A DNA stretch of 64,000 nucleotides, taken from positions 1-64,000 of the forward strand of contig JAFRZA010000017.1 of assembly GCA_017442805.1 (NCBI GenBank), in the 5' to 3' direction. How positions within the stretch are numbered: the first letter of the stretch is position 1; each line of letters opens with the position of its first letter. The position numbers and the translations under genes are program-made. This document shows, one piece after another, positions 4,646-33,551 of this stretch. The notes under the pieces were generated by a model. It did not search any database and was not told the DNA's origin. It worked only from the letters and a program-made list of their open reading frames with translations. This DNA is from Erysipelotrichaceae bacterium (lineage in GTDB: Bacteria; Bacillota_I; Bacilli_A; Erysipelotrichales; Erysipelotrichaceae).

Positions 4646-4660
4646 CAGTATCAATAAACC

Positions 4661-4930
4661 TGTGAACAAGTGTGAGTAATCAGCATGGCCGTTCTTCCAG
4701 AGAGTCGCGGTTGGTGAGAAGCGATGGAATGAGTGCTGACGAATGGGCTTGTGAGGGCAAACGGAAATCCGTAAGGAGAGTATGGGCGCCGGATTGACTG
4801 ACCGTCAGAACAGTCGGCATATGAAGGTATGCGCAGAGTGGATGCATATTGCATCAAGCCGGGTGGCACCGCAGGAAGATTAACGATCCTGTCCCAGCAA
4901 AGTTCAGTTATTTGCTGAGGCAGGATTTTT
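4661..4930 (+). ncRNA. Tryptophan T-box leader with intrinsic terminator
   Basis: The element carries the conserved T-box motif GGGTGGCACCGC (4861-4872). It ends in a terminator hairpin (arms 4886-4901 and 4911-4926) followed by a T-run. At the base of Stem I, ACAAG (4666-4670) pairs with CTTGT, and TCAGC pairs with GCTGA just above. The loop between them holds GAA followed by TGG (4744-4746), which is the specifier position and reads as Trp. The variable base of the TGGN antiterminator bulge is C, which matches the G73 discriminator of bacterial tRNA-Trp. T-boxes bind uncharged tRNA and then block termination, so the downstream transporter should be made when tryptophan is scarce. Confidence 0.9.
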
Positions 4931-5035: not shown

Positions 5036-6061
5036 ATGAAAAAAACATTATTAACCATATTCGCATTACTGCTCGCATTAAGCCTGATTGGCTGTCAGAA
5101 GAATGAACCTGCCGATGAAGACGGAAACGTTTATCACATCGGCATCTGTAACTACGTCGACCACGCCTCTCTCAACCAGATCGTCGACAACATCACCTCG
5201 CAGCTTAACGCCCTGGCCAGGGGCAGGGATTTCCGCTTTGAGATCAACTGCCAGAACTGCAACGCCGACGCCAACCTGCTGAATCAGATCATTCAGAACT
5301 TCATCGACCAGAAGATCGATCTGATGATCGGCGTCGCTACTCCGGTCGCCCTGGCCATGCAGGGAGCTACCGAAGATCATCCGATCCCGGTCGTCTTCGC
5401 CGCCGTCAGCGACCCGCTGACCTACGGTCTGGTCGATTCCCTGGATAAGCCGGGCCATAACATCACCGGTACTTCCGACTATCTCGATACCAACGCCGTC
5501 ATGAACCTGATCCTGGCTCTCAAGCCGGAGATAAAGAAGGTCGGCCTGCTGTTTGACTTCTCCCAGGACGCTTCCACCACCGCCATCAATCAGGCCAGAG
5601 AACTTCTGCAGGGCAAGGGCATCGAAGTCGTGGAGAAGTCCGGAACCAACGTTTCCGAGATCCAGATCGCCGCTGACGCCCTGATCCAGGCCGGCGTCGA
5701 AGCCGTCTTCACTCCTTCCGACAATACCGTCATGACCGCCGAACTGTCCATCTACGAGGCTCTGGCCAAGGCCGGCATCCCGCATTTCGCCGGTGCCGAT
5801 TCCTTCGCTCTCAACGGCGCCTTTTTGGGCTATGGCGTTGACTACGCCAACCTGGGTGTCGAGACCGCCAACATGGCTGCCGATATCCTGATCGAACATC
5901 TGAATCCCGGCGACGTCGCCGTCAGGACCTTCGATAACGGCATCGCCACCATCAATACCGAAGTCTGCGCTCAGCTGGGCTATGACTTCGAAGAACTGAA
6001 GAATCTGTTTGCGCCTTTATGCACCCGGGTAACCGGCATCGCGACCGGCGAGAACTTCTGA
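5036..6061 (+). CDS. trpX: TrpX-type ABC substrate-binding lipoprotein
   Basis: This 341-residue protein belongs to the ABC_sub_bind (COG2984) family. It begins with a lipoprotein signal peptide, hydrophobic and ending in the lipobox LIGC (Cys about 20), so it should be anchored outside the membrane. It is followed by a permease (27-base gap) and an ATPase, the standard TrpXYZ order. The tryptophan T-box directly upstream supports tryptophan, or an aromatic precursor, as ligand. The start at 5036 was chosen because it gives the signal peptide; an out-of-frame ATG lies at 5029. Confidence 0.88.
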   Translation: MKKTLLTIFALLLALSLIGCQKNEPADEDGNVYHIGICNYVDHASLNQIVDNITSQLNALARGRDFRFEINCQNCNADANLLNQIIQNFIDQKIDLMIGVATPVALAMQGATEDHPIPVVFAAVSDPLTYGLVDSLDKPGHNITGTSDYLDTNAVMNLILALKPEIKKVGLLFDFSQDASTTAINQARELLQGKGIEVVEKSGTNVSEIQIAADALIQAGVEAVFTPSDNTVMTAELSIYEALAKAGIPHFAGADSFALNGAFLGYGVDYANLGVETANMAADILIEHLNPGDVAVRTFDNGIATINTEVCAQLGYDFEELKNLFAPLCTRVTGIATGENF

Positions 6062-14044: not shown

Positions 14045-15277
14045 TTAATCAAATAGGCCGATGTACTGTTTCTTCTTGCCCTTGCGGATGATGATGACCT
14101 TGCCGTCAATGGCCATCTCTCTGCTCATCGGGATGTTTTCGTCGCTGTAGCGCTGGTTATTGAGGTTGATGGCTCCTGATGCCAGCATCTCCCTGGCCTC
14201 ACGGCGGCTGGAACATACCTGGTTGTTCACCAGCATGTCGATCAGCGTCTCATTCTCATTGACCTTGAAGTTGGGTACCTGGGAAGCGCACTGCATGATG
14301 TCCTCAGCGCTTAAGCCGCTGAGGTCGCCTCCGAAGAGAGCTTCGGAGATCTTGACGGCCTTTTCATATTCTTCCTGACCGTGCAGCCCGACGATGATGT
14401 CCTTGGCCAGGGCCTTGTGGGCAATCCGCAGATGCGGGGCCTCAAGATGCTGCTTTTCGATTTCCATGATCTCCTCAGGCGTCAGGAAGGTCAGCTTCTT
14501 GAGGTAGTCGATGATCATCGAGTCTTCCAGGTTGATCAGGTACTGGTACATCTGGTAGCTCGAGGTCTTGTTCTTGTCCAGCCACAGGGCATTGCCTTCA
14601 GTCTTGCCGAACTTCTTGCCGGTGGAATCGGTGACTAGCGGCATGACCATGCCGTAGGCTGTCTTGTCGATCTTCCGGCGGATCAGCTCGATGCCGGAGG
14701 TGATGTTGCCCCACTGGTCGCTGCCGGCCACCTGCAGGGTGCAGTTGCGGGTCTCATAGAGGTGCAGGAAGTCCAAGGCCTGAAGGATCATGTAGCTGAA
14801 CTCGGCGTAGGTGATGCCGGTTTCCATGCGGCTTCTGACCTTGTCCTTGGCCAGCATGTAGCCGATGTTGAAGTACTTGCCGTAATCGCGCAGGAAATCA
14901 ATGACGTTGATGTCCTTGATCCAGTCCCAGTTGTTGACGACTTCAAAGCCGAAGATCTTCTCGGCCTGAGCCTTCAGTCCGGCGATGTTGTGCTCGACTT
15001 CTTCCTTGGTGATCATCGGGCGCTCTGAATCCGGCTTGGGGTCGCCGATCATGCCGGTAGCCCCGCCGACCAGTAACAGCGGATGATGGCCGTGCTGAGC
15101 CAGTCTCTTGGAGATCAGGAAAGAGGAATAGTGGCCGATGTGCATGGAATCGGCGGTCGGGTCGGTGCCGATGTAGAAGGTCAGCCCGCCCTCGTTAAGC
15201 TTGTCGATCAGTTCCGGAGAGCTGATGTCCTGAACCAGTCCTCTCCATTGCAGTTCTTCAAAAAATGTCATGCTCAT
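14045..15277 (-). CDS. tyrS: Tyrosyl-tRNA synthetase
   Basis: The 410-residue class I synthetase charges tRNA-Tyr. The ATP-binding HIGH motif lies in TADSMHIGHYSS, and the KMSKS loop is present in the variant form KFGKT (about residue 230). Tyrosine-site features such as YMILQALDF and GSDQWGNI are present. A C-terminal S4 RNA-binding domain follows (INNQVCSSRREAREML-like segment onward). The ATG at 15277 has GGAAG nine bases upstream. A T-box motif in the short leader indicates induction by uncharged tRNA. pepC follows in the same direction. Confidence 0.97.
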   Translation of the reverse strand: MSMTFFEELQWRGLVQDISSPELIDKLNEGGLTFYIGTDPTADSMHIGHYSSFLISKRLAQHGHHPLLLVGGATGMIGDPKPDSERPMITKEEVEHNIAGLKAQAEKIFGFEVVNNWDWIKDINVIDFLRDYGKYFNIGYMLAKDKVRSRMETGITYAEFSYMILQALDFLHLYETRNCTLQVAGSDQWGNITSGIELIRRKIDKTAYGMVMPLVTDSTGKKFGKTEGNALWLDKNKTSSYQMYQYLINLEDSMIIDYLKKLTFLTPEEIMEIEKQHLEAPHLRIAHKALAKDIIVGLHGQEEYEKAVKISEALFGGDLSGLSAEDIMQCASQVPNFKVNENETLIDMLVNNQVCSSRREAREMLASGAINLNNQRYSDENIPMSREMAIDGKVIIIRKGKKKQYIGLFD

Positions 15278-15300: not shown

Positions 15301-15433
15301 AATAAAAAAATTCACTCCCTCAGGGACGCCTTTGGCGCGGTACCACCCTGATTCATGAATTTCATCACACCCTCAATGCCTTAACGCGGCGGACGTCCCG
15401 GCTCCGGAGTCGTAAATTCCATCTCAGCCGGCT
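15301..15433 (-). ncRNA. Short T-box leader of tyrS
   Basis: The canonical motif AGGGTGGTACCGCG lies on the minus strand at 15336-15349. Its arms form the antiterminator: CAGGG with CCCTG, and GCGCC with GGCG. The bulge base T fits the A73 discriminator of tRNA-Tyr. Only about 85 bases lie between the predicted transcription start (near 15433) and the motif, too few for a normal Stem I. A hairpin with CCGGCT/AGCCGG arms (within 15396-15431) displays a UAC triplet (15412-15414), the Tyr codon, in its apical loop. A T-run follows the element at about 15302-15308. Confidence 0.75.
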
Positions 15434-15439
15434 ATCACG

Positions 15440-15467
15440 ATTATAACACATCCGCTTTTACCGTAAA
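15440..15467 (-). promoter_or_regulatory. tyrS promoter
   Basis: On the minus strand, TTTACG (15462-15467) and TATAAT (15440-15445) are 16 bases apart. The perfect -10 box fixes the start of the short T-box leader. Confidence 0.7.
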
Positions 15468-15502
15468 CTCATTTTTGCCTGAAACTATGGTACAATTTTT
15501 CC

Positions 15503-30563: not shown

Positions 30564-30680
30564 ATTTCTTACCTCCGTCTTTATCCTACACCGCTGCGGG
30601 CATTCTTTTGTCGCCCCGAAGGCGACTTTTCCGCGCCGGCTGCCCCCTGAGCGTTCCCCGTGTTTTCAGATTTTCAAACA

Positions 30681-30701
30681 AATATGAAAAAATTTCATAT
30701 T
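30681..30701. promoter_or_regulatory. Perfect inverted repeat upstream of the second importer's promoter
   Basis: AATATGAAA and TTTCATATT form an exact 9-bp inverted repeat with a three-base AAA spacer. It ends five bases before the -35 box, a typical operator or activator position. Confidence 0.55.
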
Positions 30702-30706
30702 TTCAG

Positions 30707-30734
30707 TTGACATATTTTTCAAATCGTTTATCAT
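30707..30734 (+). promoter_or_regulatory. Promoter of the leader peptide and second importer
   Basis: A perfect TTGACA (30707-30712) and TATCAT (30729-30734) are 16 bases apart. Transcription should start near 30741, just before the leader's ribosome binding site. Confidence 0.75.
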
Positions 30735-30754
30735 TTACTTAAAGGAGATCATCC

Positions 30755-30814
30755 ATGAAGAGTTCACGCTATTTCGCTTACTATTATTTCTTCTTCAGTT
30801 ACCGGAAAAAGTAA
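30755..30814 (+). CDS. Tyr/Phe-rich attenuation leader peptide
   Basis: The 19-residue frame MKSSRYFAYYYFFFSYRKK contains five Tyr and four Phe codons within eleven residues (6-16). AAGGAG lies eight bases before the ATG. Such a run matches classical leader peptides (pheA, pheS, his, trp), where stalling on scarce-aminoacyl codons changes mRNA folding. It lies directly upstream of an attenuator hairpin and an aromatic-type ABC importer operon. The peptide itself probably has no function. Confidence 0.85.
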   Translation: MKSSRYFAYYYFFFSYRKK

Positions 30815-30880
30815 TCGTTTTGCGTTGGCGTGTATTCAGATCAATTTAACCTAAAAGCTGCCAACCGGGCAGCTTTATTA
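30765..30880 (+). promoter_or_regulatory. Ribosome-mediated attenuator of the second importer
   Basis: Four pairing segments are visible. Segment 1, CACGCTA (30765-30771, in leader codons 4-6), can pair with segment 2, TGGCGTG (30826-30832). Segment 2's GTTGGC (30824-30829) can instead pair with GCCAAC (30860-30865), which blocks the terminator. The terminator is AAAGCTGCC (30854-30862) with GGCAGCTTT (30868-30876), then TTTATTAAT. A ribosome stalled at Tyr/Phe codons would cover segment 1 and favour read-through. The weak T-run is the main caveat. Confidence 0.75.
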
Positions 30881-30896
30881 ATAGGAGGGGAAACAA

Positions 30897-31853
30897 ATGA
30901 AAAAACTATCCGTCATCTTACTGTCACTGTTAATGGTCCTGACCATGGCCGGCTGCAGCCAACCGCAGCCTGAGGACGACAAGTTCGTCGTCGGCATCTG
31001 CCAGCTGGTTCAGCACCCCGCTCTCGACTCCGCCACTCAGGGCTTCAAGGAGGCCCTCAAGGAGGCCCTGGGCGATAAGGTCACTTTCCTGGACGGCAAC
31101 GGTTCCGGCGATCCGGCTACCTGCACCATCATCTGCAACGGCTACGTGACCGATGGCGTTGACCTGATCATGGCCAACGCGACTCCGGCCGTAAAGGCCG
31201 CCGCCAGTGCCACCAACACCATTCCGGTCATCGGCACTTCCGTAACATCCTATGGCGTGGCTCTGGAACTCGACAACTTCGTCGATGTCACCGGCACCAA
31301 CGTCTCCGGCACATCCGATCTGGCTCCGCTGGACAAGCAGGCCCAAATGTTCCTGGATCTTCTGCCCAACGCCAAGACCATCGGCTTACTCTACTGCTCA
31401 GGCGAGCCCAACTCCCTGTTCCAGGTAGGCGTCGTCAAGGATTACCTGGAAGCTCATGGTCTCACAGTCAAGACATTCTCGTTCTCATCCTCTGCGGACG
31501 TAGCCCTGGTAACCACCCAGGCCTGCAGCGAATGCGACGCCTTATACATCCCGACCGACAACACCGCCGCTGAATGCGCGGAACTGATCGGCGGCATCAT
31601 CCTGAACAACGCCATCCCGGTCATCGCCGGTGAAGAAGGCATCTGCCAGGGCTGCGGCATTGCCACCCTGACCATTGATTACTACCAGCTCGGTGTCCAG
31701 ACCGGCAAGATGGCCGCCCAGATCCTCAAGGGCGAAGCTGATCCTGCCACCCTGGCCATCCAGTATTTCGACAATCCGACCTACAAGTACAACAAGGCTC
31801 TCTGCGAAAAGTTCGGCGTTACCGTACCTGAGGGCTATGTGGAAATGAACTGA
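30897..31853 (+). CDS. TrpX-like ABC substrate-binding lipoprotein (second importer)
   Basis: The 318-residue ABC_sub_bind (COG2984) lipoprotein has a signal peptide with lipobox MAGC (Cys 20). It is a paralogue of the protein at 5036 and shares the same layout, including the QLVQHPALDSATQGF ligand-domain start. The Tyr/Phe leader upstream suggests a tyrosine or phenylalanine ligand rather than tryptophan; this is inference. The permease follows after 14 bases. Confidence 0.88.
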   Translation: MKKLSVILLSLLMVLTMAGCSQPQPEDDKFVVGICQLVQHPALDSATQGFKEALKEALGDKVTFLDGNGSGDPATCTIICNGYVTDGVDLIMANATPAVKAAASATNTIPVIGTSVTSYGVALELDNFVDVTGTNVSGTSDLAPLDKQAQMFLDLLPNAKTIGLLYCSGEPNSLFQVGVVKDYLEAHGLTVKTFSFSSSADVALVTTQACSECDALYIPTDNTAAECAELIGGIILNNAIPVIAGEEGICQGCGIATLTIDYYQLGVQTGKMAAQILKGEADPATLAIQYFDNPTYKYNKALCEKFGVTVPEGYVEMN

Positions 31854-31867
31854 AGCGGAGCAGCAAA

Positions 31868-32755
31868 ATGACTTTAAGCAGTCTGCTTGCCCGCCTTCCC
31901 GGAGGAATTGCCATCGGCATCCTCTACGGAATCATGGCGCTGGGAATATACATTACCTTCCGCGTCCTCAAAGTCTCCGACCTGACGGTCGACGGCTCAT
32001 TCGCGACCGGCGGCGCTGTCAGCGTCATGCTGATGCTCGCCGGCGTCAACACCTGGATCTCCCTGCTCTGCGCTTTTGCGGTCGGTCTGCTCTGCGGAAC
32101 CGTTACCGGCTTACTGCACACCAGGCTGAACATCCCGATCATTCTTTCCTCCATTCTCGTTCAGATCGGCCTGTATTCCGTCAATCTGCGGATCATGCAG
32201 GGTTCAGCTCTCAAGTCCATAAGCGTAGACAAGTATAACCTGCTGATAAACGTCCGTTTCGTCAGCAAGACCATCCTCATCGGCGCCCTGATCTCTCTGG
32301 TTCTGATCATCATCCTGTACTGGTACTTCGGTACCGAACAGGGAAGCTCGATCAGGGCGACCGGCAACAACTCCGCCATGGCCAAGAGCAACGGCATCAA
32401 CACCGCCACGACCACCCTCATCGGTCTGGCCCTGTGCAACGGTGTGGTAGCCTTTGCCGGAGGTCTGATGTCCCAGTACCAGGGCTTTTCCGATGTCAAC
32501 CAGGGCCGCGGCGCCATCGTCACCGGCCTGGCCGCCATCATCATCGGCGAAGTGCTGTGCGACATCTTCTTCAAGAAGGGCAGCAGCTTCTGGCTGCGGC
32601 TGACCTTCGTCATCCTCGGCGGCATCATCTACTACCTGATCATGGTGCTGATCCTGTGGCTGCGGGTCGATTCCAACGACCTCAAGCTGTTCACCGCCAT
32701 CATCGTCGCCATTTTCCTGGCCATTCCCAATTTCCGGAAAGGAGCTGCTGAGTAA
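31868..32755 (+). CDS. TrpY-like ABC permease (second importer)
   Basis: The 295-residue membrane protein has about eight hydrophobic segments and the COG4120 signature VLKVSDLTVDGSFATGGAVS near the N-terminus. It matches the permease at 6089 in the same part. A GGAG-like site precedes the ATG and its stop lies one base before the ATPase gene. It should form the channel for the second aromatic-type importer. Confidence 0.87.
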   Translation: MTLSSLLARLPGGIAIGILYGIMALGIYITFRVLKVSDLTVDGSFATGGAVSVMLMLAGVNTWISLLCAFAVGLLCGTVTGLLHTRLNIPIILSSILVQIGLYSVNLRIMQGSALKSISVDKYNLLINVRFVSKTILIGALISLVLIIILYWYFGTEQGSSIRATGNNSAMAKSNGINTATTTLIGLALCNGVVAFAGGLMSQYQGFSDVNQGRGAIVTGLAAIIIGEVLCDIFFKKGSSFWLRLTFVILGGIIYYLIMVLILWLRVDSNDLKLFTAIIVAIFLAIPNFRKGAAE

Positions 32756-32756
32756 C

Positions 32757-33551
32757 ATGTTAAGGATCACAGACATCGCCAAGACATTCAACAGGGGAAC
32801 GGTAAATGAGAAGGTGGCCATTGCCGACCTGTCCCTGACGTTAAACGACGGGGACTTCGTCACCGTCATCGGCTCCAACGGCGCCGGCAAGTCGACCCTG
32901 CTCAACGCCATCGCCGGTACCTGGCTGACCGATTCCGGAAGCATCATGATCGATGACATCGACATCACCCGCCTGCCGGAATACAAGCGGGCCAAATACA
33001 TCGGCCGGGTCTTCCAGGACCCGCTGATGGGCACGGCTGCCGACATGTGGATCGAGGAAAACCTCGCTCTGGCCAGCCGTCGGGGCGAACGCAGACGCCT
33101 GTTACCCGGCATCACCCGCTCAGAACGGGCTGAATATGCCGAGATGCTCAAGCCGCTGAACCTCGGTCTGGAAAACCGTCTCACCAGCAAGGTCGGACTG
33201 CTCTCCGGCGGCCAGCGGCAGGCTCTTACCCTGTTAATGGCAACCATTAAGAAACCCAGACTGTTGCTGCTGGACGAGCATACCGCCGCTCTGGACCCGG
33301 CAACCGCCGACAAGGTCCTGAAGCTTACCGACGAACTTGTCAGCAAGGACAGCCTGACCACCCTGATGATCACCCACAACATGCAGGACGCCATCGACTA
33401 CGGCAACCGGCTGATCATGATGAATGAAGGCCGGATCATCCTGGACATCGCGGGTGAGGAAAAGAAGCAGCTGACCAAGCAGCAGCTGATCGACCGCTTC
33501 AACGCATTATCTGACCAAAAGCTGGAAAGCGATGACGTTCTGCTTTCCTGA
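32757..33551 (+). CDS. TrpZ-like ABC ATPase (second importer)
   Basis: The 264-residue ATPase has Walker A GSNGAGKST, signature LLSGGQRQALTLL, Walker B LLLLDEHTAALD and H-loop MITHNMQDAI. The DEHTAALD form is shared with trpZ at 6999. It completes a three-gene operon controlled by the Tyr/Phe attenuator. A strong terminator follows. Confidence 0.9.
   Translation: MLRITDIAKTFNRGTVNEKVAIADLSLTLNDGDFVTVIGSNGAGKSTLLNAIAGTWLTDSGSIMIDDIDITRLPEYKRAKYIGRVFQDPLMGTAADMWIEENLALASRRGERRRLLPGITRSERAEYAEMLKPLNLGLENRLTSKVGLLSGGQRQALTLLMATIKKPRLLLLDEHTAALDPATADKVLKLTDELVSKDSLTTLMITHNMQDAIDYGNRLIMMNEGRIILDIAGEEKKQLTKQQLIDRFNALSDQKLESDDVLLS

Follow-up and report, generated by a model that had tools for sequence, protein, structure and literature searches.

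What controls the importer operon at positions 30897-33551, and which aromatic amino acid does it carry? The operon encodes the substrate-binding protein (SBP), permease and ATPase of an ABC transporter. It lies in a window of 64,000 nucleotides (the whole stretch of DNA analysed here), part of a 1.8-Mb genome assembly rated 94% complete. The closest named relative encodes a protein 88% identical and is labelled Erysipelotrichaceae, its genome coming from a rumen metagenome. We suggest that a ribosome-mediated transcription attenuator ties expression of this importer, whose predicted substrate is Tyr/Phe, to how much charged tRNA-Tyr and tRNA-Phe is available, and judging from sequence analysis we put the probability of this reading at about 0.88.

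Organization of the leader and the importer operon

The following features were identified, all on the plus strand.

30707..30734, +, strong sigma-70 type promoter, TTGACA-16 nt-TATCAT (consensus scan, 11/12 matches)
30742..30747, +, Shine-Dalgarno (SD) sequence of the leader, AAGGAG; most relatives' leaders likewise have one
30755..30814, +, predicted leader peptide ORF, MKSSRYFAYYYFFFSYRKK and stop, 19 codons with 5 Tyr, 4 Phe and 0 Trp (translation, conserved leaders)
30883..30890, +, SD sequence of the importer's first gene
30897..31853, +, lipoprotein SBP, Pfam ABC_sub_bind, TrpX-like (profile and residue comparison)
31868..32755, +, permease, BPD_transp_2 (domain match)
32757..33551, +, ATPase, ABC_tran (domain match)

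The original prediction described a 19-residue leader with nine aromatic codons out of eleven. This proved exact to the base: in the translation of MKSSRYFAYYYFFFSYRKK, nine of the eleven codons 6-16 are aromatic. The ORF has an SD sequence, a start codon and a Tyr/Phe run, all conserved, and is predicted to be translated.

RNA pairings and proposed mechanism

The leader RNA contains four elements that can pair in mutually exclusive ways.

30765..30771, +, region 1, CACGCTA, within leader codons 4-6, pairs with region 2 (sequence, folding)
30823..30834, +, region 2, CGTTGGCGTGTA, begins 8 nt past the stop codon, partner is region 1 or region 3 (folding)
30858..30866, +, region 3, CTGCCAACC, terminator 5' arm and loop (sequence, pairing analysis)
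30854..30876, +, 3:4 intrinsic terminator hairpin, AAAGCTGCC/GGCAGCTTT, followed by the U-rich tail ATTAAT (sequence, folding)

In brief, the 1:2 pairing joins 30765-30771 (CACGCTA) with 30826-30832 (TGGCGTG), the 2:3 pairing joins 30824-30829 (GTTGGC) with 30860-30865 (GCCAAC), and the arms of the terminator stem are 30854-30862 and 30868-30876. Both pairings and the terminator had been named in the original prediction, and all are present in the sequence. The free leader RNA folds as a 1:2 hairpin spanning the whole leader plus the 3:4 terminator (-42.1 kcal/mol, z -3.0, equalled by 0 of 200 shuffles).

We propose that, when Tyr (and Phe) is plentiful, the leader would be translated to its end and region 2 would be masked or would return to region 1; with region 2 unavailable the 3:4 hairpin would form and transcription would end before the importer. 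If the ribosome stalled within the run of Tyr/Phe codons, it would hold the 1:2 hairpin open, region 2 would take region 3 once that is transcribed, the terminator would not form and the importer would be made. Stalling, and read-through upon starvation, are the parts of this model that we infer.

Folding with a stalled ribosome was one of the proposed checks. In simple equilibrium folding 3:4 wins once region 4 has been transcribed and no antiterminated state is seen, and for this reason we folded the RNA length by length. With a ribosome stalled in the aromatic run, 2:3 then forms as region 3 is synthesized, in what is still an equilibrium model with no kinetics. In the window copy the 2:3 duplex and the terminator are equally stable (-11.6 each), and antitermination would therefore depend on kinetics. 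If the ribosome has a footprint of 13 nt, it masks just the start of region 2 when it reaches the stop codon here, and termination may thus rely on its release and on refolding of 1:2. The T-run (TTATTAATA) is as weak as first described, and most relatives have TTTTTATTT-like tails. Given the weak U-tract and the equal energies of 2:3 and 3:4, the efficiency of the window copy may be modest. Assistance by Rho, which had been offered in view of the weak T-run, found no backing: no protein in the assembly (94% complete) exceeds the cut-off of 509 of the Rho model TIGR00767, the only scores being 45.9 and 23.4 bits.

The weak U-tract would also suit translational attenuation, where the hairpin mainly hides the SD sequence of the importer and stalling exposes it. 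The window fold does lengthen the hairpin by CCUA/UAGG, which covers part of AGGAGGGG, but this extension is missing in most relatives, which have clear U-runs (TTTTTATTT or TTTTTTATC) and a free SD sequence. We consider translational attenuation unlikely, at around one chance in ten, and favor control at the level of transcription.

Two Rfam models were compared with the region. The T-box model RF00230 gave no match at 30650-30920; it does match at a paralogous importer in the window and on the importer of relatives, as described below. The Phe_leader model RF01859 scored 21.6 bits against a gathering score of 55 (E 0.18), which is below threshold.

Conservation of the aromatic leader

We drew orthologues of the operon from whole genomes and examined the sequence upstream of each in the orientation of the operon. 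An aromatic leader is found in the same place in 7/7 sampled genomes of the genus (for example MKTARYFAYFYFFYNYRKK, MKIVSAYNVNYYYYYYSKK and MNKTFIFTAVYYYSYYFG), in five other Erysipelotrichaceae genomes (MAYFGFYFYAFFDYLQK, MNKNENRSYYYYYYFRIMK, MNKTVIRSYYYYFYFRK, MNKSYYYYYYLSD and MAYCVAFTFMAYYFSFYF) and in no fewer than 14 others, for the most part Clostridia MAGs; it should be noted that related sequences are not independent, and the counts of leaders and T-boxes given here are to be taken accordingly. The order promoter, SD sequence, leader, pairings is kept in all congeners, and permease and ATPase genes stand behind the SBP gene in most leader operons with enough flanking sequence. Altogether 26 leaders comprise 583 residues, of which 123 are Tyr, 80 are Phe and 0 are Trp. 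One aromatic leader with importer (L188) is on a contig labelled as a Spirochaetaceae MAG, which may reflect horizontal transfer or mis-binning.

Runs of codons for Tyr and Phe are common in AT-rich DNA, and the ORF could in principle be a chance product beside the ordinary terminator of the upstream gene. Scanning the genus for runs of six Tyr/Phe codons is uninformative in the AT-rich congeners, where the pattern is frequent; it did reveal a second leader before a tandem SBP gene. A stricter search, which required an SD sequence, a start codon and at least six aromatic residues within 10 codons, found a leader upstream of 1/624 other ORFs as against 24/183 SBP loci, and the single hit is a spurious ORF adjoining another SBP gene. 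The gene left of the leader lies on the opposite strand, so the terminator at 30854-30876 is not that gene's own. With leader, pairings and their order conserved in relatives besides, we regard a chance ORF as having next to no probability.

Conservation and covariation of the pairings

Leader and gene are separated by a terminator at 34 leader loci, and the 5' arm of this terminator is complementary to sequence close to the stop codon, on one side of it or the other. The 2:3 sequences differ between groups: GUUGGC/GCCAAC in the window, UUGGCA/UGCCAA in the other congeners, GCUUUUGUGC/GCACAAAGC in a different genus and GUUUGUGC/GCACAGAC in the Clostridia. Compared with shuffled sequences the 2:3 pairing has a mean z of -2.18 over 26 loci, with p<=0.05 in 15, and taken alone is non-significant in about 10 of the 26. 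The aromatic leaders L188, L199 and L232 lack significant 2:3 pairing. When the regions were swapped among 10 sequence subgroups, the observed value was -15.0 and the permuted value -11.6 (sd 0.85), and 1/5000 permutations was as good.

In eight aligned leaders of the Clostridia type the 2:3 helix is 96.1% paired and shows seven double-sided changes (0/500 shuffles). Those at alignment columns 67 and 68 have their 3' partner in the terminator loop; these pairs are therefore kept for the antiterminator, as the terminator stem offers no explanation for them. The structure composed of 1:2 plus 3:4 has nine pairs with double-sided changes (0/500). Aromatic codons, both exclusive pairings, with compensatory changes, and gene context are thus kept in relatives, the conservation on which the original prediction had been staked.

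The ORF itself is conserved and has a good SD sequence, which would also fit a functional aromatic, perhaps membrane, small protein, or a nascent peptide that arrests the ribosome by its sequence and not through codon starvation. Against this, the peptide sequence varies freely save for its density of Tyr and Phe, and Tyr and Phe are swapped between the closest pair of leaders (L001/L002). Moreover, region 2 (UUUGUGCUGC) encodes Leu-Cys-Cys inside some leaders and falls past the stop codon in others, which indicates that the RNA is conserved rather than the peptide. A small protein or arrest peptide is in our judgement very improbable, and we retain the reading of the ORF as a leader whose codons are sensed.

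The longer Clostridia leaders, of 50-56 codons (L194, L204, L213, L228, L231, L233 and L239), and also L219, have a weaker 2:3 pairing (mean z -0.81) and were excluded from the evidence. The seven putative leaders of 50-56 codons finish with a run of aromatic codons, and their loci have a strong terminator whose tail is TTTTTGATA or TTTATGATA.

The amino acid predicted to be sensed and carried

T-box control had been described as the commoner arrangement in this lineage, and most close relatives indeed have a T-box on the orthologous importer operon at the place of the leader. The final count of T-box specifier codons is 25 UAC (Tyr), 14 UUC (Phe) and 3 UGG (Trp), taken from covariance-model alignments where printed and otherwise by a regular expression, with some T-boxes unread. 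Two of the UGG specifiers (L261 and L275) belong to diverged paralogues and the third (L243) is an unverified regular-expression reading. One importer (L098) is preceded by two tandem, adjacent T-box matches of 121.6 and 87.9 bits.

Structures of CD0873 (Tyr), SP1069 (Trp) and VC_1101 (Phe) assign the choice of side chain to two positions; a Glu+Tyr pair selects Tyr in Clostridioides difficile CD0873, and Ala+Gln is found in the Trp-binding SP1069 (PMC6816091). The window contains the following features of relevance.

31632..31634, +, Glu246 codon of the window SBP, aligns with CD0873 Glu263 (alignment)
31680..31682, +, Tyr262 codon of the window SBP, aligns with CD0873 Tyr279 (alignment)
4653..4899, +, T-box with UGG (Trp) specifier before a paralogous TrpX-like importer (T-box covariance model 85.0 bits, E 7.9e-19; GAA-UGG from the alignment)
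5036..6061, +, paralogous TrpX-like SBP, 27% identical to the protein encoded at 30897, with Ala replacing Glu246 (alignment)

The window SBP thus has the equivalents of both CD0873 residues, from which Tyr binding is predicted. The Glu+Tyr pair is present in 33/33 SBPs of the leader type and in 25/25 SBPs with a UAC T-box. We also found 64 SBP genes with the Glu+Tyr pair at which neither leader nor T-box was detected. In another genus of the family, which has neither of these sensors, the palindrome-like AGTGTGTAAACACT or a similar sequence lies about 33 nt before the SBP start at L118, L123 and L124 and is possibly a repressor operator.

The top NCBIfam match of the window SBP is TrpX (NF041285), with 219.8 bits against a cut-off of 390, which falls short of family membership. 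On the strength of that name the importer might carry Trp, with the aromatic codons as a loose aromatic signal. This is countered by the 0 Trp codons in 26 leaders, by the UAC and UUC specifiers of the T-boxes that replace the leader (bar the one UGG reading), and by the pocket, where the side-chain positions hold Glu246 and Tyr262 and no Ala+Gln of the SP1069 type (PMC6816091). In addition, the role of Trp importer apparently falls to the 5036 paralogue with its UGG T-box. We think a Trp importer highly improbable. A substrate of Tyr/Phe rather than Trp, as originally put forward, is supported by the T-box specifiers on orthologous operons together with the CD0873-type residues, and leader codons, T-box specifiers and binding residues, which we describe as three independent lines, all point to Tyr/Phe. 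In the leaders these codons are for Tyr, in most cases accompanied by Phe. For the window operon we infer import of Tyr, perhaps Phe.

The T-box at 4653..4899 scores below the Rfam gathering score of 93 bits, and a default scan misses it. The tyrS gene (tyrosyl-tRNA synthetase, 14045-15277) is preceded by a short T-box at 15319-15477 on the minus strand, with 45.5 bits and much of stem I unmatched. Of 13 T-boxes in the genome, 12 appear to precede synthetase genes, which apart from tyrS were named by eye from the sequence. The T-box is therefore the aminoacyl-tRNA sensor almost everywhere in this genome except at the leader locus.

Relation to known systems

The pheA/pheST and trp leaders of Enterobacteria are attenuators with an aromatic-codon leader, 1:2, 2:3 and 3:4 pairings and an intrinsic terminator. 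The window element has the same type of leader, pairings and terminator as these (RF01859 Phe_leader and relatives), but it occurs in another lineage, has no significant covariance-model match and would control an importer instead of biosynthesis or a synthetase. The mechanism itself is classical ribosome-mediated attenuation.

In Bacillota, His leader-peptide attenuators have been described in Erysipelotrichales, Peptostreptococcaceae and the Bacillus cereus group (PMC9413887) and before hisS/hisZ of bacilli (PMC2965389). They share with the present element that leader peptides stand at genes controlled by T-boxes in relatives, and the order Erysipelotrichales is common to both; those leaders precede histidine biosynthesis or synthetase genes, whereas the present ones combine Tyr/Phe with a transporter, across Erysipelotrichaceae and Clostridia. 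The ilv-leu operon of Staphylococcus aureus has an experimentally supported Leu-rich leader-peptide attenuator where relatives use a T-box (PMC5794164), the same pattern in Bacillota, there for branched-chain amino acids and a biosynthetic operon. The uORFC-13-1 motif before aroF in Acholeplasma, a Gram-positive relative, has a proposed uORF with Phe codons and an adjacent terminator (PMC8632094); compared by its description, it differs in the biosynthetic gene and in having at least one Phe codon and no Tyr/Phe run.

Among importers, the TrpXYZ system of Streptococcus suis is homologous and likewise attenuated by amino acid supply, there by a UGG T-box riboswitch responding to tryptophan (PMC9382623). 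The SBP of the CD0873-0875 tyrosine importer of C. difficile is homologous to the window SBP, 35% identical, with the same Glu+Tyr pair (PMC6816091; PDB 6HNI). A literature search for a Tyr/Phe leader on this importer, with most subscription journals outside its scope, found no description. The locus would be a case in gut Bacillota of a nutrient importer under a Tyr/Phe leader-peptide attenuator, where control by a T-box was expected. It also leads us to assign tyrosine, or Tyr/Phe, to many importers automatically annotated as tryptophan importers. In C. difficile tyrosine uptake feeds p-cresol production (PMC6816091), and correct assignment of such importers therefore matters for gut metabolism.

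Exchange of leader and T-box, and duplicated binding proteins

In the SBP tree of the family we count no fewer than three exchanges between leader and T-box, and the AU test rejects the grouping of all leaders in one clade (p 8.8e-25). Sister SBP genes differ in their sensor, with a leader at L240 and T-boxes at L255 and L259. This exchange is unusually clean, and offers a large natural series of cases in which the same gene is found with one or the other of two unrelated RNA sensors.

The SBP gene is duplicated in four congeneric genomes, with a separate promoter, leader and terminator for each copy. The leader is Tyr-only at the first copy, with 7-8 Tyr and 0 Phe, and Phe-rich at the second, for example MKTVLYNNAYFNFFFFYFNK; in genomes G000 and G003, where the gene is single, Tyr and Phe are mixed in the leader. 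We looked for a difference between Phe-type and Tyr-type pockets in the tandem SBPs and found none: both keep Glu+Tyr and the proteins are 80% identical. To date we therefore see a split in the sensor but none in the pocket.

We speculate, at roughly even odds, that T-box and leader replaced each other in place several times while the sensed amino acid stayed constant, and that, after duplication of the SBP gene, the Tyr-only and the Phe-rich leader both arose from an ancestral leader of mixed Tyr+Phe codons, the copies answering different starvations with pockets still of the Tyr type. The tandem genes with their Tyr-only and Phe-rich leaders make both the specificity of the sensor and its evolution directly testable. 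At L292 (genome G001) and at L293-L295, the Phe-rich second leader attenuator is located between the tandem SBP genes.
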